Source: Limnochorda sp. LNt
Lineage (GTDB): Bacteria > Bacillota > Limnochordia > Limnochordales > Geochordaceae
Reading direction: 5' to 3'
DNA length: 64,000 nucleotides
Assembly (NCBI RefSeq): GCF_035593265.1
Contig: NZ_CP141614.1
Location: 62,001-126,000 of the forward strand
Numbering within the stretch: position 1 is the stretch's first letter; every line of letters begins with the position of its first letter. The notes beneath the pieces are model-generated. The model searched no databases. It saw nothing but the letters and a program-made list of their open reading frames with translations, and was not told where the DNA came from. This document shows, piece after piece, positions 41,705 through 51,550 of the stretch. Both the position numbers and the translations under genes were made by a program.

Positions 41705-43411
41705 GTGGCTGTCAAGATCAGGGAGACGGAGCTGCTGCTCTCCCACCGCCTGGAGGCACGAAGCGTCGAGGCCACGGCCTCCGGCACCCTACGGCTCTCT
41801 CCCGAGCTTCCCGATGCCGGTACGGCCATCCGCTGGAAGGCATTGGCCGCGGTCGACCGGGTCGTCGCGGACGCCGAGACGGGACGGCTCGAGGTCCGTG
41901 GCTCCCTGCACGCGTGGGTCGTCTACGCCGCAGCGGGCTCGGAGTCGCCGGATCCGGTCGGAGCCCTCTACGGAGGCCGCCTGGAGGGCGAGCTGACCTT
42001 CGTGGCCGGTTTCGATCTCCCGCCCGAGGGGGTCGAGGCCCGCTGGGAGGCCACCGCCCAGGTCCGCGACGTCGACGGCCGCTTCCGGGGCGACGGGAGG
42101 ACCGTCGATGTCGACGCGGTGGTCCAGGTCGTGGCGATGGGGACGGTCGCCGAGCGGACCACCGCCGTGAGTCACGTCGCCGCGACGGCGCCCGACCGCA
42201 TCGAGGCGACGCCGGCCAATCTCCGGCTCAACATCTTCTTCCAGGGCGCCCAGCGCACGCGACTGGCCGTGGAGGAGGCGCACGGACTGGACCTGCCGGG
42301 AGGCACGGCGGCTCGCCTGCGGGTGCTGGACCTGCACGTGGAGCCCGTCATCACCGGCACCGAGGCGCGCCAGGGCGAGGTGGAGGTGCGCGGGGAGACC
42401 GTCTTCTCGTTGCTGTACGCCATCCAGCGGCACGCCGAGGAATCCCCGCCCGAGCCGGGTGGTGACGGCGAGGAGGACGAGGGCGTCGAGCCGGGCGCGG
42501 CGAGCCGGACGACCCGTCTGTGGGACGTGCAACTGGCCGCGTGGAGCAGCACCGAGGGATGGACCACCACCATCCCCGTCCCGGGCGTGGAGCCCGGCAC
42601 ACGCGTTCGGGCCCAGGCCCAGGCGGCGGACGCGGTGGTGCGGGTCCTGCCGGCCGAGGGACTCGTCTACATCACCTGCCAGATCGACGTCGAGGCCCAG
42701 GCCTGGGCAGTGCGGGCCGTGCCGGTGGTGGCGGACATCCGCTCGGCGGGCCCGCTGCCGGTCGAGGTGCGCAAGGTCGAGCTGCGGCTCGAGAGCCCCG
42801 CGGGCGAGGGGCGCCGCACGTTCACCGCGGGCGGGACCGTCGAGATCACGGGCACACTACCTCCGGTCGACCGGATCGTCTGGAGCGGGGTGCAGATCGA
42901 CAGCCTCACCGTGCGACCCGACACCGGCCGGGCCCACGTGACGGCGTCGCTGACGCCGTGGGCCTACTACCTCCCGTACAAGGCCGACGAGCGCGCCACG
43001 GGCATCGTCTTCGCCCTCTGGCCGGGGGCAGTCACGCTCGAGCAGACGGTCTCGGTGCCCGATCTAAAGGGGGAGGCCGAGGTCCGGGCCGCCCTGTCGA
43101 GCCTCTCCGTGGAGGCCGACCTGATCAACCGGCAGACGGTGGAATTCACGGTCTCGGGCACGTGTGCGGTGGAGGCGTGGCTGCCGGCCTCCCAGGAGGT
43201 GGTGGCCGAGGCGGTGGCGGTGCGGGCCGCTGCGGAGCGCCAGCCGTCCATCTATCTGGTGGTGACGCAGCCGGGGGATACGCTGTGGAAGCTCTCCCGA
43301 CGCTACCGAACCAGTGCCCAGCGGCTGCTGGCGGCCAACCCCGCCCTGGGGGCCCACGAGGAGACGACCGCCCTCCCCGCGGGGAGTCGCCTCTTCATCG
43401 TGAGGGAGTAA
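41705..43411 (+). CDS. sipL: SipL-like spore coat morphogenetic protein (SPOCS domains and LysM)
   Basis: 568 residues. About three DUF3794/SPOCS repeats (roughly residues 30-150, 170-320 and 330-500), then a C-terminal LysM domain (YLVVTQPGDTLWKLSRRYRT and LAANPAL). This is the architecture of SipL of Clostridioides difficile, whose LysM domain binds the SpoIVA ATPase to anchor the coat. The family is confined to spore-formers. GTG 41705 has GGGAGGCG about 8 bases upstream. Close in length to known SipL proteins (slightly longer); the acidic insert near residue 250 is a difference. Confidence 0.85.
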   Translation: MAVKIRETELLLSHRLEARSVEATASGTLRLSPELPDAGTAIRWKALAAVDRVVADAETGRLEVRGSLHAWVVYAAAGSESPDPVGALYGGRLEGELTFVAGFDLPPEGVEARWEATAQVRDVDGRFRGDGRTVDVDAVVQVVAMGTVAERTTAVSHVAATAPDRIEATPANLRLNIFFQGAQRTRLAVEEAHGLDLPGGTAARLRVLDLHVEPVITGTEARQGEVEVRGETVFSLLYAIQRHAEESPPEPGGDGEEDEGVEPGAASRTTRLWDVQLAAWSSTEGWTTTIPVPGVEPGTRVRAQAQAADAVVRVLPAEGLVYITCQIDVEAQAWAVRAVPVVADIRSAGPLPVEVRKVELRLESPAGEGRRTFTAGGTVEITGTLPPVDRIVWSGVQIDSLTVRPDTGRAHVTASLTPWAYYLPYKADERATGIVFALWPGAVTLEQTVSVPDLKGEAEVRAALSSLSVEADLINRQTVEFTVSGTCAVEAWLPASQEVVAEAVAVRAAAERQPSIYLVVTQPGDTLWKLSRRYRTSAQRLLAANPALGAHEETTALPAGSRLFIVRE

Positions 43412-43494: not shown

Positions 43495-44766
43495 ATGCAG
43501 GGGGCGCCGCCCGACACGTCGAGCATCGACCGGATCCTGGTGTTGCAGCTGTGCCCCATTGGCGACACGCTCTTCGGCACGCCGGCCATCCGGGCGCTGC
43601 GGAGACGCTTCCCCCGTGCGTACATCGCCGACGTCACCTGGTACGCCAACCGGGAGGTCCTGGAGGGCAACCCGCACCTGGACCGGGTGATCCTCTGTCG
43701 CAGCGGGCTTCAGCTGCCGCGCCTGCTGTCAGCGCTGGCCGACGAGGACTTCGACGCGGTCGTGGGACTCTCCAACATCGGCAGCTGGCTCTCCCTCTTC
43801 ACCCGTGCCACGGTCAGGGTCGGCTTCAACAGCCAGACCCTGGGCTGGTTCTACAGCTCGCCGGTGCCGGACCGGCGCGAGCGGCACGCCATCGACTACT
43901 GCCTGGACGTGGTGGCGGCCCTGGGCGCCGAGCCCGACGGCCGGTGGATGGAGCTCCCCGTCGGCCCCGCCGAGCGGGCGTGGGCCCGTCGGCTGCTGAC
44001 GGCATCGGCGCAGGCGGCGCCCCTGCGCGTCGCCATCCACCCGGGTGGCCGCCACTTCCCTGCCAAGAGGTGGCCCGCGTCGGGGTTCGCGCACGTGGCC
44101 GACTACCTGGTCGGCCGGTACGGCGCGCAGGTGGTGGTCGTGGGGGGGCCCGACGACGTCGAGCTGGCGCGAGTCCTGGCGGAGGAGGCCCGCCTGGCCG
44201 AGCCGCTCGTGGTAGCCGGTCGGACAAGCCTCAAGGAGACCGCGGCCATCCTGGAGCAGTGCGACGTCTTCATCGGTAACGACTCGTCGCCGCTGCACAT
44301 GGCCCAGGCGGCGGGCACGCCGGTGGTCGCGCTCTTCGGTCCCACGGACCCGGGCAACTTCGGTCCCCAAGGCCCCCACGACGTGGTCGTGCGCAGGGCC
44401 GTACCCTGCAGCCCCTGCTTCCACTGGCTCGGCGGCAGCCGCCAGTACCTCAGCTACGCCTCGCTGGCCGAGCAGCCCGCCCCGTGCATGCGCGCCATCG
44501 GCCCGGCCGACGTCATCGCGGCAGTGGAGCGGGTGCTGGACCGAACGGGCCTGCGGGAGGCCCGCCGGCTCCCCAAGCCCCCGCCGCTGCTCCTTCCCGA
44601 GGCGCCTCCGTGGCACTGGAGCGTCGAAGGCGAGACGACCCGGCTGCCGAGCGGGCCCCTGTGCGCGCCGGGCGTCTGGCGGCGCCGCGCTTTTGGGCGC
44701 CGCAAGGTGAGCCTCACCTACCGGCGTCGCGTGGCCCACAAGGTGCAGGAGTTCGAGGAGATGTGA
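43495..44766 (+). CDS. Glycosyltransferase family 9 protein (heptosyltransferase-like)
   Basis: 423 residues. GT-B fold: N-terminal RILVLQLCPIGDTLFGTPAI, central IHPGGRHFPAKRWPASGFA and C-terminal IGNDSSPLHMAQAAGTPVVALFGPTDP are GT9 signatures, as in ADP-heptose LPS heptosyltransferases. A basic C-terminal extension of about 60 residues follows. Together with rfaE1 and rfaE2 downstream it probably transfers heptose to a surface glycan; with no LPS context seen, an S-layer or secondary wall polymer is plausible. Overlaps the next gene as GTGA. Confidence 0.85.
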   Translation: MQGAPPDTSSIDRILVLQLCPIGDTLFGTPAIRALRRRFPRAYIADVTWYANREVLEGNPHLDRVILCRSGLQLPRLLSALADEDFDAVVGLSNIGSWLSLFTRATVRVGFNSQTLGWFYSSPVPDRRERHAIDYCLDVVAALGAEPDGRWMELPVGPAERAWARRLLTASAQAAPLRVAIHPGGRHFPAKRWPASGFAHVADYLVGRYGAQVVVVGGPDDVELARVLAEEARLAEPLVVAGRTSLKETAAILEQCDVFIGNDSSPLHMAQAAGTPVVALFGPTDPGNFGPQGPHDVVVRRAVPCSPCFHWLGGSRQYLSYASLAEQPAPCMRAIGPADVIAAVERVLDRTGLREARRLPKPPPLLLPEAPPWHWSVEGETTRLPSGPLCAPGVWRRRAFGRRKVSLTYRRRVAHKVQEFEEM

Positions 44767-45902
44767 ACGAGCCGCGTCGCCAGGCCTGGGCCCTGTCGCC
44801 CCAGGCCATTCGACGAAGCGTCATCATCTCGCTGGTGGCAGGGGCGGCCGCCGTGGCCGCCCTTCTGTTGCTGGTACGAGACGGCGACGAAGCCATCGAG
44901 CAGATCCATCTGGTGGACCCCGCCTGGCTGACGGTGGCCGGCGCCCTCACGATGGGGGCGTGGTTGTTGCGCACCTGGCGAAGTCAGATCCTGGCGGCCG
45001 CCTTCGGCGCACGGGTGCCGGCCCGCCGGGTCTTCCGCTACTATCTGGCCAGCGTCTTCGTCTCGCACGTGACGCCGACCAGTGCCGGAGGCGTCCCCGT
45101 CTTCATCTACCTGCTCACCCGGGAGGGCCTCTCCCCGGGCCATGCGACGGCGGTGGCGGTGGTCGACTCCGGGCTGGTGGTGCTGTGGGTGTTGGCCGCC
45201 TGGCCGGTGGCGGCGGCCTGGAAGGGACTGGCGGCCCGGTTGGGCTCGCCCGGCCTGACGGCGGCGGTGGTGGGGGCGCTGGCGGCCGTGGCGCTCCTGG
45301 TCGGCTGGATGCTGGCGCGGCCCCGCTCGGTGCCGGCCCTGCTAATGCGCTGGCTCGCCCGTGAGCGAGCACAGGGCGGGCGTCGGCTCTCCCGCCGCTG
45401 GGCCAGCGTGCTGGTCAAGGAGAGCCTGCGCTTCTCGCTGGGGCTTCGCTACCTCGTGCTGCGCCGCCCGTGGCACCTGCTGGCGGCCACGGTGTTGACG
45501 GGGCTGTACTGGGTCGTCTACCTCTCCATCGCCTGGGCGGTGTTGGTGGGGCTGGGTGGCCGGGCCGACTGGCTCTACGCGGCCGCCGCGCAGCTCCTCT
45601 TCAACCTGCTGCAGCCCTTCATCCCGACGCCCGGGGGCAGCGGCGGCGCGGAGCTGATGATGGGCTGGCTGTTCCGGCGGGTCGTGCCGGCCAGCCGGCT
45701 GGCGGTCTTCGTGGGGGTGTGGCGCCTCTTCATCTTCTATGCCAGCCTGGTGGTCGGGGGCGTGATGTTCATGCGGTCGCTGGGGGGCCGCGGCCTGCGC
45801 CCCGGGCCAGCCCCGAGGCGCCCGGTCTCGCTGCGGCAGGCGAGCGACGGTGCCGGGGGCCGTACAGGGCGCGCCCCCGCCCCTGCCGAACCTCCCTCCT
45901 GA
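44763..45902 (+). CDS. Flippase-like membrane protein (UPF0104 / LPG synthetase TM family)
   Basis: 379 residues with about eight membrane helices. Typical motifs are RTWRSQILAAAFG, FVSHVTPTSAGGVPVFIYLL and the late FIPTPGGSGGAELMMGWLF region, matching the UPF0104 (AglD/MprF-N-like) family thought to move lipid-linked sugars or phospholipids across the membrane. GTG 44763 overlaps the glycosyltransferase stop and has GAGGAG just upstream. It likely acts with the neighbouring sugar genes. Confidence 0.82.
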   Translation: MNEPRRQAWALSPQAIRRSVIISLVAGAAAVAALLLLVRDGDEAIEQIHLVDPAWLTVAGALTMGAWLLRTWRSQILAAAFGARVPARRVFRYYLASVFVSHVTPTSAGGVPVFIYLLTREGLSPGHATAVAVVDSGLVVLWVLAAWPVAAAWKGLAARLGSPGLTAAVVGALAAVALLVGWMLARPRSVPALLMRWLARERAQGGRRLSRRWASVLVKESLRFSLGLRYLVLRRPWHLLAATVLTGLYWVVYLSIAWAVLVGLGGRADWLYAAAAQLLFNLLQPFIPTPGGSGGAELMMGWLFRRVVPASRLAVFVGVWRLFIFYASLVVGGVMFMRSLGGRGLRPGPAPRRPVSLRQASDGAGGRTGRAPAPAEPPS

Positions 45903-45936
45903 TCCGCGATCCGTCGAGAAGCGAGGTGCCGCTGCC

Positions 45937-47025
45937 GTGTCGGACGCACGGCAATTCGCCCGGTCCGTCACCGACGGGTGGCCGGGCGCGTCGGCCGCGC
46001 AGGTGCTGGAGCTGTTGCGTGCCATCCGAGGTCGGCGCATCGCCGTGGTGGGCGATGCCATCCTGGACCGCTACGTCTACGGCGAGCCGGTGAGGATCTC
46101 ACGAGAGGCGCCGGTGCTGATCCTGCGCTGGTCGGGCGAGGAGAGCCGGCTGGGGGGCGCCGCCAACGCGGCCGCCAACGCGGCCGCCCTCGGGGCCGAG
46201 GTGGAGCTGGTCAGCCTGGCAGGCGACGACGCGCCGGCGGAACGCCTGGCGGCCTTGGCCGCCGAGCAGGGCATCACGGCCCGCCTCGTGCGCGAGCCGG
46301 GCAGGCCCACCACCGTCAAGACCCGCTTCGTGGCCGGGGGCCGCCAGACGGTCCAGCAGCAGGTGCTGCGGCTGGACCGGTGGGAGAGTGGAGCTCCGCC
46401 TGCGGGCATCCACGACGGCCTGGTCACCGCTGCGCAGGAGGCCGTGGGACGCGCCGAGGCCGTCATCGTCTCGGAGTACGGCGGGGGCACCGTGACCCCC
46501 GCCCTCTTCGCCGCCGTGAGGCGGGCGGCCGAGCGGCGGGGTGTGCCGGTGCTGGTGGATGCCCGCTACCGGCTACGGGAGCTCAAAGGCGCCTATGCGG
46601 CCACGCCCAACCGCGGCGAGGCCGAGGAGGCCGTCGGCCAGCCGCTCGTCGACGAGGCCTCTCTGGTCGACGCCGGGCGGCGACTGCTCGCCCAGCTGGG
46701 GCTGGAGGTGCTGGTGCTGACACGAGGGGAGGAAGGGATGTCCCTCTTCTTCGCCGATGGCCGCCCGCCGCTGCGGGTGATGGCCTATCGGCCCCGCGAG
46801 GTCTACGACGTGAGCGGGGCCGGCGACGCCGTGGTCTCGGCCATGGCGCTGGGGCTGGCCTGTGGCACGGATCGCGTGCTGGCCGCGGCGCTGCTGGCCG
46901 ACGTCGCCGCTGGCCTGGTCGTGGGCAAGCGTGGCGTGGCGACGGTCTCCCCCCAGGAGGTGGAGGAGGCGGTGGTCGGGTGGACCCCCACCATCTATCC
47001 GCTGGAGGCCCCCATCGGCCGATGA
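45937..47025 (+). CDS. rfaE1: Heptose-7-phosphate kinase (RfaE1/HldE-N type)
   Basis: 362 residues, PfkB/ribokinase fold. GDAILDRYVYGEPVRISREA, LGGAANAAANAAALGAEV and the anion hole VSGAGDAVVSAMALGLA (catalytic Asp in GAGD) are typical of D-glycero-beta-D-manno-heptose-7-phosphate kinases. The kinase and adenylyltransferase are separate genes here, unlike the fused HldE of E. coli. GTG 45937 is chosen because GAGGTG lies 9 bases upstream. Its stop overlaps rfaE2 as ATGA. Confidence 0.88.
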   Translation: MSDARQFARSVTDGWPGASAAQVLELLRAIRGRRIAVVGDAILDRYVYGEPVRISREAPVLILRWSGEESRLGGAANAAANAAALGAEVELVSLAGDDAPAERLAALAAEQGITARLVREPGRPTTVKTRFVAGGRQTVQQQVLRLDRWESGAPPAGIHDGLVTAAQEAVGRAEAVIVSEYGGGTVTPALFAAVRRAAERRGVPVLVDARYRLRELKGAYAATPNRGEAEEAVGQPLVDEASLVDAGRRLLAQLGLEVLVLTRGEEGMSLFFADGRPPLRVMAYRPREVYDVSGAGDAVVSAMALGLACGTDRVLAAALLADVAAGLVVGKRGVATVSPQEVEEAVVGWTPTIYPLEAPIGR

Positions 47026-47558
47026 CGGCCACGCAGGAGCCGCTGTCGCTCCAACGGATCGTGACGGCCCAGCAAGCGGCCGCCTTCGCCCGCGCCTTGC
47101 AGCAGGACGGGGTGGAGGTGGCCTTCACCAACGGCTGCTTCGATGTGCTGCACGCCGGCCACGTGGCCTACCTGGAGGTCGCCAGGGCCATGGCCGGTGC
47201 GCTCATCGTGGGCGTCAACAGCGATGCCAGCGTCCGCCGGCTGAAGGGGCCGGGCCGGCCGGTGGTGCCCCAGGAGGACCGGGCCCGGGTCGTGGCCGCC
47301 CTGCGGGCCGTGGACCGCGTCGTCATCTTCGAGGAGGAGACGGCGGCCTCTCTCATCGAACTCATTCGGCCAAATCTCTACGTCAAGGGTGCGGACTACG
47401 CCGACAAGGCGCTCCCCGAGGAGCCGACCGCGCGGGCGGTGGGGGCCCGTATCGTCCTGGTGCCGCTCCTGGCAGGGCGCTCGACGTCGGCGCTCATCGA
47501 GCGCCTGCGTCACGGCGGGCGGCGGCCCGAGTCGGCCGAGTCCGAGCCCGCCACGTAG
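47022..47558 (+). CDS. rfaE2: Heptose-1-phosphate adenylyltransferase (RfaE2/HldE-C type)
   Basis: 178 residues, nucleotidyltransferase of the cytidylyltransferase fold. TNGCFDVLHAGHVAYLEVAR carries the HxGH motif, and NSDASVRRLKGPGRPVVPQ and GADYADKALPE are signatures of RfaE2. It would make ADP-heptose from heptose-1-phosphate. GmhA, GmhB and the epimerase HldD are not in the window. Slightly longer than typical because of a short acidic tail. Confidence 0.9.
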   Translation: MTATQEPLSLQRIVTAQQAAAFARALQQDGVEVAFTNGCFDVLHAGHVAYLEVARAMAGALIVGVNSDASVRRLKGPGRPVVPQEDRARVVAALRAVDRVVIFEEETAASLIELIRPNLYVKGADYADKALPEEPTARAVGARIVLVPLLAGRSTSALIERLRHGGRRPESAESEPAT

Positions 47559-47582: not shown

Positions 47583-48563
47583 GTGGTACGGATCACGGTC
47601 ATCGGCAGCTATCCCAAGCTCCCCGAGGGTACCGAGGGGCCCAACGTGCGCAACGCCATCAACCGCTTCGAGGCGGGGCGTCTCTCCTCGCGGGCGCTGG
47701 AGCAGACCGTGCGCCAGACCGTGGCAAGGGTGATCCGCGAGCAGGAGCAGGCAGGAGTCGACCTGGTGACCGATGGACAGGTGCGCTGGGACGACCTCGT
47801 CACGCCTTTCGCCCGGGACCTGGGCAGCGTCGAGGTAGGCGGGCTCGTCCGGTACTTCGACAACAACGTCTACTACCGCCGCCCCCAGATCAAGGGACGG
47901 GTCTGGTTTCGGGGCTCGTCGCTGGCCTGGGAGGTGCGCCAGGCCAAGGCGGTCGCCCGCAAGCCGCTCAAGGTGGCGCTGCCGGGGCCCTACACCTTCG
48001 TCAAGCTGAGCGTGGACGAGCACTACCACGACCTCGGACAGGCCATGGCCGACGTGGCGGAGGCGCTCAACCTGGAGACCCACGCCCTGGTCGAGGCGGG
48101 CGCCGACGTCATCCAGTTCGACGAGCCAGCGCTGCTCTTCGGCGCCTCGTCCGAGGAGGTCCGGCTCGCACGGGAGGCGCTGGCCGTGGCCCGGGAGGGC
48201 CTGACGGTGCCGGTGGCGTTGCATACCTACTTTCGCGACGCCGAGCCGCTGTGGGAGGCGCTCGTCAGCTTCGACGTCGACATCCTCGGCTGGGACCTGG
48301 CCTCGGGGCCGGGCCTGGCCCGGCGCCTGGCCGAGGTGGAGCTGGGCAAGCAGGTGACCCTGGGACTGGTGGACGGGCGCGACTGGCGGCTGGAGGCCGC
48401 CGACGAGCTGGCCCGGATCATCGAGGCGGTGGGCCGCCGTCAGGGCGATGACCGGATCCTCATCAGCCCCAGTTGCGGGCTGGAGTTCTTGCCCCAGGGG
48501 CGGGCGCTGGCCAAGCTCGAGCGCCTGGCCGAGGCTCGAGCCCTGGTGGCAGGCGGAGCATGA
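47583..48563 (+). CDS. MetE-like protein, zinc-site-deficient half
   Basis: 326 residues with the single UROD/MetE barrel. VTDGQVRWDDLVTPFARDL, LPGPYTFVKLS and VIQFDEPAL fit the MetE core fold, but the zinc ligands are incomplete: the usual HxC is HTYF, the ligand-Glu region reads GWDLASG, while SPSCGLEF keeps the last Cys. It resembles the N-terminal half-like partner in organisms with split MetE, next to a catalytic half. GTG 47583 start. A role in homocysteine methylation together with the next gene is inferred. Confidence 0.75.
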   Translation: MVRITVIGSYPKLPEGTEGPNVRNAINRFEAGRLSSRALEQTVRQTVARVIREQEQAGVDLVTDGQVRWDDLVTPFARDLGSVEVGGLVRYFDNNVYYRRPQIKGRVWFRGSSLAWEVRQAKAVARKPLKVALPGPYTFVKLSVDEHYHDLGQAMADVAEALNLETHALVEAGADVIQFDEPALLFGASSEEVRLAREALAVAREGLTVPVALHTYFRDAEPLWEALVSFDVDILGWDLASGPGLARRLAEVELGKQVTLGLVDGRDWRLEAADELARIIEAVGRRQGDDRILISPSCGLEFLPQGRALAKLERLAEARALVAGGA

Positions 48564-48582
48564 GCCAGAAGGAGGCCTCCTC

Positions 48583-49554
48583 ATGGCAGCCCTCTTGACG
48601 ACCAGCGTGGGCAGCTTCCCCAAGCCCGACTACCTGCTCAAGGCGCGCTCGGCCTTCGCCCGGGGGGAGATCTCCCGCGAGCAGCTCGCCGCCGAGGAAC
48701 GGCGCGCCACCGAAGCCTGCATCCGGCTCCAGGAGCGGCTGGGCATCGACCTCCTGGTGCACGGCGAGATGGAACGGGGCGACATGACCACCTACTTCGC
48801 CGAGCAGCTGGAGGGCTTCGCCATCAGCGGGCTGGTGCGCTCGTACGGCAACCGGTACTACCGCAAGCCCATCGTGGTGGGCCCCATCGGCCGGCGCCGG
48901 CCCATGGCCGTCGAGGCCTTCACCTTCGCCCAGAGCCTGACCAGCCGCCCCGTCAAGGGCATGCTCACCGGCCCGTACACGATGGCCGACTGGTCGTTCA
49001 ACGACCACTACCCCAACCGCCGGGCCCTGGTGCTGCGGCTGGCCGAGGTGATCCACGAGGAGGCGGTGGACCTGGAGCGGGCCGGCGCCCGCTACATCCA
49101 GATCGACGAACCTGCCGTCTCCACCCGCCCCGAGGAGATCGAGCTGGCCATCGAGGCGCTCGGGATCGTGACGCGAGGGCTCTCGGCCCATACCATCACG
49201 CACATCTGCTACGGGCACTTCGAGACCATCTACCCCCGCATGCTGGACCTGCCCGTCGACCAGCTGGATCTGGAGGCGGCCAACAACGACTTCGCCATCC
49301 TGGAGCTCTTCCGCCGCCACCGCCCGCACAAGGAGATCGCCCTGGGCGTAGTGGACGTCCACAGCCATCGCGTCGAGCCGGTGGAGGAGATCAAGAAGGG
49401 GATCCTGGCGGCGCTGGAGGTGCTCGAGCCGGACCAGCTCTACGTCGACCCCGACTGCGGGCTCAAGACCCGCACGTGGGAAGAGGCCGAGCAGAAGCTG
49501 GCCAACATGGTGGAGGCGGTCCGCCAGGTGAAGGCCGAGCGCGGCCTCGAGTGA
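48583..49554 (+). CDS. Core MetE-type methionine synthase (catalytic half)
   Basis: 323 residues, about the size of the C-terminal half of MetE. All zinc ligands are visible: HICYGHF (HxC), LEAAN (Glu) and DPDCGLKTR (Cys). KGMLTGPYTMADWSF and YIQIDEPAVSTRP bind substrate in MetE. Such core MetE proteins in archaea and some bacteria use methylcobalamin or corrinoid proteins rather than folate as methyl donor. AAGGAGG lies 7 bases before ATG 48583. Forms a likely unit with its paralog upstream and the fused enzyme downstream. Confidence 0.88.
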   Translation: MAALLTTSVGSFPKPDYLLKARSAFARGEISREQLAAEERRATEACIRLQERLGIDLLVHGEMERGDMTTYFAEQLEGFAISGLVRSYGNRYYRKPIVVGPIGRRRPMAVEAFTFAQSLTSRPVKGMLTGPYTMADWSFNDHYPNRRALVLRLAEVIHEEAVDLERAGARYIQIDEPAVSTRPEEIELAIEALGIVTRGLSAHTITHICYGHFETIYPRMLDLPVDQLDLEAANNDFAILELFRRHRPHKEIALGVVDVHSHRVEPVEEIKKGILAALEVLEPDQLYVDPDCGLKTRTWEEAEQKLANMVEAVRQVKAERGLE

Positions 49555-49564
49555 GGGCGTCGCG

Positions 49565-51550
49565 ATGACCTTCGCCGAGATGGTGCGACCGGGGCGGGTC
49601 GCACTGGCGGACGGCGCCATGGGTACGCTCCTCTACGCCAGGGGGGCGCCGCTGGAGGGCTCCTTCGACGCGCTCAACCTGACGCAGCCGGACCTGGTGC
49701 TGGGGGTCCACCTCGACTACATCCGCGCCGGGGCGGAGATCATCACCACCAACACCTTCGGCGCCAACCGCATCCGCCTGGGCGGCCACGGCCTGGCTGA
49801 CCGGACGCGCCCCCTCAACCTGCAGGGGGTCAAGATCGCCCGCAACGCTCGCGAGATCGCCGGGGTGCCCGTGCTCATCGCGGGCGACATCGGCCCCACC
49901 GGCAAGCCGCTGGAGCCCGTCGGCCCGCTGACGGAGGCGGAGGTGCTCGACGCCTTTCGCGAGCAGGTAGACGCCTTGCTGGCGGGAGGCGTGGACCTCT
50001 TCGTCATCGAGACCATGTCGGACCCACGCGAGCTGGCCCTGGCGCTCCGGGCGGTGCGTGAAGCCTGTCGGCTACCGGTCATCGCCCAGATGAGCTTCTC
50101 GGCCGAGGGGCGCACCCTGCTGGGCGTATCGCCCGAGGAGGCCGCCCTCGCCCTGGCCGCCCTCGACGAGGCGTGGCACCCCGACGTGATGGGGGTCAAC
50201 TGCGGCGCCGGACCGGCCCCCGTGCTGGACGCGCTGCGGGCCATGCGTGGCACGGCGGGCCCCCGGGCCCGGCTGTCGGCCATGCCCAATGCAGGGCTGC
50301 CCACCATCGTGGGGGGCCGTTACGTCTACGTCGCCAACCCAGAGTACTTCGCCGACTTCTCCCGGCGGGTGGCGGCCGAGCCCGGCCTGGCGGTGGTGGG
50401 TGGCTGTTGCGGCACGACGCCCGATCACATCCGGGCCATGCGCCGTGCGCTCGATGCCATGGGTCATCGCCTGCCGGAGGAGTGGGCGCGGGCGCTGTCG
50501 CTGGGCACGGGCGAGCCCGGGCCGACCCCGGGCGTCAAGGAGCCGCCGGTGGCAACGGTGGGGGCGGAGCAGCCGGGTCGGCCGACCGCTCGGGTGGTGC
50601 TGCCTGGCGGGCTGCCTGCCGGGGGCCAGAAGGAGGCGACTCCCCGCCGACCCGCTTCGCGGCTGGCGGCGCGACTCGGGCGTGAGTTCGTCGTCAGCGT
50701 GGAGCTGGACCCGCCGAGGGGGCCGGTGGCGCAGAAGCTCATCGCCGGGGCACGAGCGGTGCGAGAGGCGGGGGCCGACGCCATCAACGTCGGTGACAGC
50801 CCGATGGCGCAGGTGCGCATGGCGTCGCTGGCCGCGGCCCACCTGATCCAGCAGGAGGCCGGGATCGAGACCATCCTCCACTTCACCACCCGGGATCGCA
50901 ACCTGATGGGCATCCAGGCCGATCTGCTGGGGGCGCATGCCATGGGGATCCGTCACATCCTGGCGCTGACGGGCGATCCCCCCGGCCTGGGCAACTACGC
51001 CCACGCGACGGCGGTCTACGATCTGGACTCCATCGGCCTGGTGCGGGTACTGAGCCGTCTCAACGAGGGCGTGGACGTGGCCGGCAAGGGGATCGGCAGG
51101 GCCACGGAGTTTCTCATCGGGGTGGCCCTCAACCCGGCGTCCCAGGACCTGACGACCGAGGTGCAGCGATTCGCTCGCAAGGTGGAGGCGGGGGCCCACT
51201 TCGCGATGACCCAGCCCCTCTTCGACCTGGAGCCGCTGCTCGAGGTCTTCGACCGGCTGGGCGGGCGCCCCATCCCGGTCCTGCTGGGGGTGCTGCCCCT
51301 GCGCAGCTACCAGCACGCCGAGTACCTGCACAACGAGGTGCCCGGGATCTCCATCCCGGAGCGCATCCGGGAGGCGGTGCGCAAGGCGGGCGACCAGGCC
51401 GAGCGGGTCGGGATGGAGATGGCCCTGGAGGTGGCGCTCAAGGCCCGTCCCTACGTGGACGGCGTCTACGTCATCCCGTCGTTTGGCCGCTACGAACAGG
51501 CCTGCGAGCTCGTGCGAGCGCTCTTGGCCCACGTGCGACCGGGCAGCTGA
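49565..51550 (+). CDS. yitJ: Fused homocysteine S-methyltransferase / methylenetetrahydrofolate reductase (YitJ type)
   Basis: 661 residues. The N-terminal homocysteine methyltransferase domain (about 1-300) has ADGAMGTLLYARGA, the zinc Cys in MGVNCGAG and the pair in GGCCGTTPDH. After an Ala/Pro/Gly-rich linker (about 300-355) the MTHFR domain carries VSVELDPPRG, ILALTGDPPG and AMTQPLFDLEPL. It makes 5-methyl-THF and methylates homocysteine. Longer than typical YitJ because of the linker. It ends the methionine island. Confidence 0.92.
   Translation: MTFAEMVRPGRVALADGAMGTLLYARGAPLEGSFDALNLTQPDLVLGVHLDYIRAGAEIITTNTFGANRIRLGGHGLADRTRPLNLQGVKIARNAREIAGVPVLIAGDIGPTGKPLEPVGPLTEAEVLDAFREQVDALLAGGVDLFVIETMSDPRELALALRAVREACRLPVIAQMSFSAEGRTLLGVSPEEAALALAALDEAWHPDVMGVNCGAGPAPVLDALRAMRGTAGPRARLSAMPNAGLPTIVGGRYVYVANPEYFADFSRRVAAEPGLAVVGGCCGTTPDHIRAMRRALDAMGHRLPEEWARALSLGTGEPGPTPGVKEPPVATVGAEQPGRPTARVVLPGGLPAGGQKEATPRRPASRLAARLGREFVVSVELDPPRGPVAQKLIAGARAVREAGADAINVGDSPMAQVRMASLAAAHLIQQEAGIETILHFTTRDRNLMGIQADLLGAHAMGIRHILALTGDPPGLGNYAHATAVYDLDSIGLVRVLSRLNEGVDVAGKGIGRATEFLIGVALNPASQDLTTEVQRFARKVEAGAHFAMTQPLFDLEPLLEVFDRLGGRPIPVLLGVLPLRSYQHAEYLHNEVPGISIPERIREAVRKAGDQAERVGMEMALEVALKARPYVDGVYVIPSFGRYEQACELVRALLAHVRPGS

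Follow-up and report, generated by a model that had tools for sequence, protein, structure and literature searches.

A compact four-gene cluster of Limnochorda sp. LNt, located in a 64,000-nucleotide stretch (the window) that spans positions 62001-126000 of the 3.02 Mb single-contig genome, encodes a GT9 glycosyltransferase, a flippase-like membrane protein, an HldA/RfaE1-type kinase and an HldC/RfaE2-type adenylyltransferase. With about even confidence, we read it as an envelope module that would synthesize ADP-D,D-heptose and pass the heptose on by a heptosyltransferase, the acceptor being most likely a four-enzyme lipid A that lacks 3-deoxy-D-manno-oct-2-ulosonic acid (Kdo), or else another envelope glycolipid. 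The identities of the sugar and of its acceptor are what we infer here. The coupling of the four genes proposed in a first-pass annotation of this DNA is confirmed, as all of them lie on the + strand and are tightly packed: the GT9 and flippase genes overlap by 4 nt (44763-44766), the HldA gene starts ~34 nt past the flippase stop codon, and the HldA and HldC genes again overlap by 4 nt (47022-47025). An alternative HldA start at 45850 is likewise open.

The assignment of the kinase and the adenylyltransferase as HldA/HldC-type enzymes is supported by sequence comparison. The kinase scores 288 bits against TIGR02198 versus 55 bits against the ribokinase profile; the curated cut-off of the former is 345 bits, which is reached by none of the 73 Limnochordia genomes in our survey (31 LpxC-positive and 42 LpxC-negative). 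We accept the HldA identity despite this score because the structure match and the signature residues fit HldA. The best match of the AlphaFold model (predicted local distance difference test score of 87) is the solved HldA 4e8y, and the top seven PDB matches are all HldA of Burkholderia cenocepacia (E 2e-33, ~39% identity); the fold ranked after them is weaker by over 10 orders of magnitude. The signature residues R82, EAPV86-89, GGAxN, K157, R159, QQ170-171 and Y210 are present. Among them, EAPV86-89, K157, R159, Q170-Q171 and Y210 show little or no variation in reference HldA and are retained by every Limnochordales HldA, whereas they are altered in the other PfkB kinases of Limnochordia. 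The nearest named relative that we found is the Limnochordaceae metagenome-assembled genome Bu05, with an HldA identity of 65%; Bu05 and Carboxydochorda subterranea are members of one species (PMC11456536).

The Limnochordales HldA departs from classical HldA at several near-invariant sites, namely P85R, PK238-239 to S/A/T-R, E178 and K212. Most of these departures, including P85R and the S-R change at 238-239, are also carried by the HldA of G018, a genome in which GmhA-like, GmhB, WaaA and LpxK proteins are encoded and HldD is absent. In our tree, the G018 sequence falls inside the Limnochordales HldA group with a support of 87/89, on a long branch. Since a genome with GmhA-like and GmhB proteins thus shares the departures and groups with the Limnochordales enzymes, parsimony moderately favors the same substrate for both.

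HldC scores 179.6 bits against TIGR02199, whose cut-off is 181.5, and just 31 bits against the glycerol-3-phosphate cytidylyltransferase model; its nearest solved relative is 5x9q (E 1e-38). The GT9 protein matches PF01075 at 130 bits versus a gathering score of 22, and its best NCBIfam models are lipopolysaccharide (LPS) heptosyltransferases III, II and I, all under their equivalog cut-offs. Its nearest solved relatives are 3tov (GT9, E 1e-35) and then WaaF 1psw, and the catalytic and donor motifs (GD24, K191 and NDS..H) are conserved among the homologues. Against the model of the glucosaminyl-phosphatidylglycerol flippase, the PF03706 protein reaches a weak 87 bits (cut-off 320). The same slot is taken by PF03706 in one sister family (f2) and by a GT4 glycosyltransferase in the other (f3); the latter scores 177 bits against the monoglucosyldiacylglycerol synthase model (cut-off 400) and 122 bits against that of N-acetylglucosaminyl-phosphatidylglycerol synthase (cut-off 480).

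The phylogenetic distribution ties HldA and GT9 to each other. High-scoring HldA (267-316 bits) occurs in 10 of the 73 genomes: G000, G063, G064 and G065 of the window's own family (f1), G060-062 of f2, G066 and G067 of f3, and G018 of f9, i.e. nine Limnochordales carriers and G018. GT9 is found in exactly the same ten genomes, one copy each, and in none of the other 63 (by families 4/4 versus 0/12, for which the chance is 1/1820). Because this co-occurrence is perfect, the view that GT9 is a heptosyltransferase-type enzyme going with HldA and HldC is supported. All ten carriers are LpxC-positive, and neither HldA nor GT9 was found in any of the 42 LpxC-negative genomes (p 7e-5 for HldA, counted by genome). 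Families f1 and f2 share the arrangement GT9-flippase-HldA-HldC. The G018 cluster is arranged with GmhB directly before HldA-HldC, followed by an ATP-binding cassette (ABC) transporter, LpxK, KdsA and KdsD, and its GT9 lies on another contig beside WaaA and a WaaP-type kinase; these LPS-gene neighborhoods therefore tie this type of HldA to LPS.

Judged by its gene content, the organism is an LPS-type diderm member of the Bacillota (Limnochordales). Limnochorda pilosa has been described as a Gram-negative spore-former. An outer membrane was observed by transmission electron microscopy (TEM) in cultivated Limnochordia of the same family (PMC11456536), and Limnochordia are counted among the diderm Bacillota (PMC11448272). 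The lpx, lpt and bam gene set of LPS-type diderm Bacillota is present in the window's chromosome, with LpxC (288 bits) at 278 kb. The cluster at 262-290 kb encodes TamB-like (by inspection), BamA, OmpH, LpxD, LptG/F, LptD-like, LptC and LptA proteins, followed by an ABC ATPase, LpxC, FabZ, LpxA, LpxI, LpxB, an LpxB-related protein, MsbA, a GalE-like epimerase, LptB and an S-layer homology (SLH) protein. FabZ and LpxB were identified by eye from their sequence and location, and the LptD, LptC and LptA matches are weak, though in the expected syntenic order. The premise of the first-pass annotation, an ordinary monoderm spore-former, was thus wrong. Since genes for an outer membrane and its lipid A are present, an outer-membrane glycolipid is a likelier target of the module than an S-layer or spore coat. 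The LpxB-related protein (L009:282-1511), directly after LpxB, is TIGR03492-like at 35 bits and could attach an additional sugar or stand in for one of the steps.

Neither GmhA nor GmhB, which normally catalyze steps one and three of the pathway, was detected in the genome. For GmhA, only a MurQ-like protein and an RpiR-type regulator, both with sugar isomerase (SIS) domains, were matched at 27-29 bits, and we rejected both. For GmhB, TIGR00213 gave no match and TIGR01656 matched only NagD-like and generic HAD proteins at 32 bits or less, which were also rejected; the corresponding control values in G018 are 133 and 149 bits. A GmhA in G061 was not accepted as the missing enzyme of the order, as it is present in one of nine genomes and belongs to a sugar-use cluster with ROK kinases, an alpha-mannosidase-like gene and ABC sugar transporters. 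In the case of HldD (TIGR02197), we found only generic sugar epimerases in the window's genome, the best at 143 bits versus a cut-off of 275, and a short-chain dehydrogenase/reductase conserved beside lpxC scores higher as GalE (183 versus 124). Because G018 also lacks HldD, the pathway may just end at ADP-D,D-heptose. Since three carriers (G000, G064 and G066) are single contigs, gaps in the assemblies are unlikely to explain the missing genes. Loss of GmhB is reported to be partly compensated in other bacteria (PMC10221265), and the GmhA gap is the harder of the two to explain. The first-pass annotation had held that a lack of gmhA and gmhB would refute its proposal; the lack is real, yet the sugar may still be heptose because the HldA signature residues are kept and the G018 gene set is fuller.

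In the mechanism that we tentatively propose, GmhA would be replaced by a non-homologous isomerase, for example a phosphomannose-isomerase-like enzyme, which would convert sedoheptulose 7-phosphate with the correct configuration at C2, and GmhB perhaps by a generalist phosphatase. The heptose would then be transferred by GT9 to a glycolipid of the inner membrane, for which the Kdo-less lipid A of the organism itself is the most likely candidate. This acceptor is predicted to carry neither Kdo nor the 4'-phosphate, given the absence of WaaA and LpxK: among the 73 genomes, WaaA (PF04413 over cut-off) and LpxK (PF02606) were found only in G018, and 30 of the 31 LpxC-positive genomes have none. 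The PF03706 protein probably helps to move or present the glycolipid, and the finished heptosylated lipid would be exported by MsbA and Lpt. The specific combination, a Kdo-independent GT9 that adds heptose to a four-enzyme lipid A devoid of Kdo and of the 4'-phosphate, with GmhA and probably GmhB replaced by unrelated enzymes, is possible but, in our estimate, doubtful. If true, Limnochordales would possess an LPS inner core without Kdo.

Several observations weigh against a heptose module of the envelope. Without a Kdo transferase, the organism does not make Kdo-lipid A, on which GT9 heptosyltransferases usually act. The module and the lpx cluster are unlinked. GmhA is absent in 8/9 Limnochordales carriers and GmhB in 9/9, with TIGR01656 giving generic HAD proteins only. 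Counted by family, the confinement of HldA to LpxC-positive genomes is not significant alone (p 0.12), so that we consider it supportive rather than decisive. Furthermore, 21 LpxC-positive Limnochordia genomes, those of family f4 in the same order among them, have neither HldA nor GT9, and the module is therefore not a general requirement for LPS.

The joint absence of GmhA and GmhB could be accounted for in one step if the HldA-like kinase had a different sugar or sugar phosphate as its substrate, or acted at C1 of a free sugar, with HldC converting the product to another ADP-sugar for GT9 to transfer; both enzymes would be needless because the kinase would act on another substrate. The departures of the Limnochordales HldA at near-invariant sites are in line with this explanation. 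However, G018, in which GmhA, GmhB, WaaA and LpxK are encoded, shows P85R and S-R as well and its HldA clusters with the Limnochordales set, the EAPV, K157, R159, QQ and Y210 residues altered in other Limnochordia PfkB kinases are kept, and the structure matches HldA far better than any other PfkB kinase. We therefore regard a different sugar as unlikely. A heptosyl phospholipid or glyceroglycolipid, built by GT9 together with the PF03706 flippase (or the GT4 in f3) and flipped across the membrane, would suit the absence of a Kdo acceptor as well as the flippase and glycolipid synthase models matched by the two proteins. These matches are far below the curated cut-offs, though, while the models matched by GT9 are those of LPS or autotransporter heptosyltransferases, and the module is restricted to LpxC-positive genomes, so that such a lipid seems decidedly improbable.

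Heptose in an S-layer or spore-surface glycan, as the first-pass annotation had suggested, is very unlikely. The better-known donor in S-layer glycosylation is GDP-heptose, not ADP-heptose. The module does stand directly behind the sipL-like SPOCS/LysM gene in the four f1 genomes, TEM has revealed S-layers in Geochorda and Carboxydochorda (PMC11456536), and a gene for an SLH protein lies close to the lpx genes. However, the sipL-like gene adjoins the module only in the window's own family, with other neighbors in f2 and f3, and for this reason the adjacency does not support a spore link. The module is also found in 0/42 LpxC-negative Limnochordia, and the SLH proteins of diderm Bacillota are often OmpM-type outer-membrane tethers (PMC10628300). 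For an LPS-type diderm whose module is confined to LpxC-positive genomes and whose sipL neighborhood is not conserved, the S-layer/spore proposal is not supported.

None of HldA, HldC, GT9 and the lipid A pathway of four enzymes is new in itself. GDP- and ADP-heptose S-layer glycan systems of Gram-positive bacteria such as Aneurinibacillus use GmhA and GmhB; heptose activation in a member of the Bacillota is common to these systems and ours, but GmhA and GmhB were not found here and outer-membrane genes are present. The module resembles the classical ADP-heptose pathway (PMC10221265) in having separate genes for an HldA-type kinase and an HldC-type adenylyltransferase together with a GT9 heptosyltransferase-type enzyme, and differs from it in lacking GmhA, GmhB, a dedicated HldD and, for the usual acceptor, WaaA. 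A lipid A pathway of four enzymes (LpxA, C, D and B) without LpxK and WaaA is known in Cyanobacteria and Dictyoglomi (PMC3087551), where, as here, the genes for the lipid A disaccharide are present and LpxK and WaaA absent. Cyanobacterial LPS, however, was reported to be without heptose (PMC3087551), whereas HldA, HldC and GT9 are present in our case. The clustering of lpx, lpt and bam genes with LpxI and FabZ is shared with the LPS loci of Negativicutes and Halanaerobiales (PMC5007114), which, unlike 30/31 LpxC-positive Limnochordia, have LpxK and WaaA, along with kdsABCD (PMC5007114).

In the literature that we searched, the combination of heptose and lipid A genes without WaaA, LpxK, GmhA and GmhB was not found described, nor did we find any publication that deals with Limnochordia Kdo or heptose. 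This class is one of three known diderm lineages of Bacillota and has been used to argue that the ancestor of the phylum had an outer membrane. It appears mostly to have a minimal lipid A pathway devoid of LpxK and WaaA, on top of which most of one order seems to have a heptosylation module. The acceptor of the Kdo-less heptosyltransferase and the missing sedoheptulose-7-phosphate isomerase can be tested in cultivated Geochorda, Carboxydochorda and Limnochorda.

Table 1. Genes of the putative heptose module and the upstream neighbor, in window coordinates.
Feature	Coordinates	Strand	Profile matches
GT9 glycosyltransferase, LPS-heptosyltransferase type (423 aa)	43495..44766	+	PF01075 130 bits
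Flippase-like membrane protein, LPG_synthase_TM family (379 aa)	44763..45902	+	PF03706 124 bits; TIGR00374 106 bits
HldA/RfaE1 kinase	45937..47025	+	TIGR02198 288 bits, E 6e-86
HldC/RfaE2, putative heptose-1-phosphate adenylyltransferase (178 aa)	47022..47558	+	TIGR02199 179.6 bits, E 3e-53
SipL/SPOCS + LysM protein, upstream neighbor, not counted in module	41705..43411	+	PF12673, PF01476

The SipL-like protein has one recognizable SPOCS domain, with LysM at the C-terminus. The same-strand run continues past HldC, the next gene starting at 47583, 24 nt downstream, and a scan for promoters and terminators found nothing. Positions 47583-51550 encode two MetE-type methyltransferase-like proteins and a fused homocysteine S-methyltransferase/methylenetetrahydrofolate reductase-like protein, all named by inspection. 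Elsewhere in the genome, a low coding-score island (L011, G000:C1:2048000-2061000) with sugar transferase, epimerase, UDP-glucose dehydrogenase-like and UDP-galactopyranose mutase-like genes is likely an acquired surface-polysaccharide locus.

Lower-scoring RfaE-like kinases (~115-160 bits) of other Limnochordia were not counted as HldA; the four that we placed in the tree form a separate PfkB group with altered HldA residues. A recurring cluster in the LpxC-negative families f11, f13 and f15 (L041, L046, L038 and L035) comprises a HAD phosphatase, a conserved protein of ~330 amino acids with a MMGAHVIKTGMSR motif, and an RfaE-like PfkB kinase that scores ~139-160 bits against TIGR02198 and has the HldA residues altered. 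In the L041 version, a GmhA-like SIS protein is next in line, and GmhA matches near RfaE-like kinase clusters were also observed in G020, G021 and G034.
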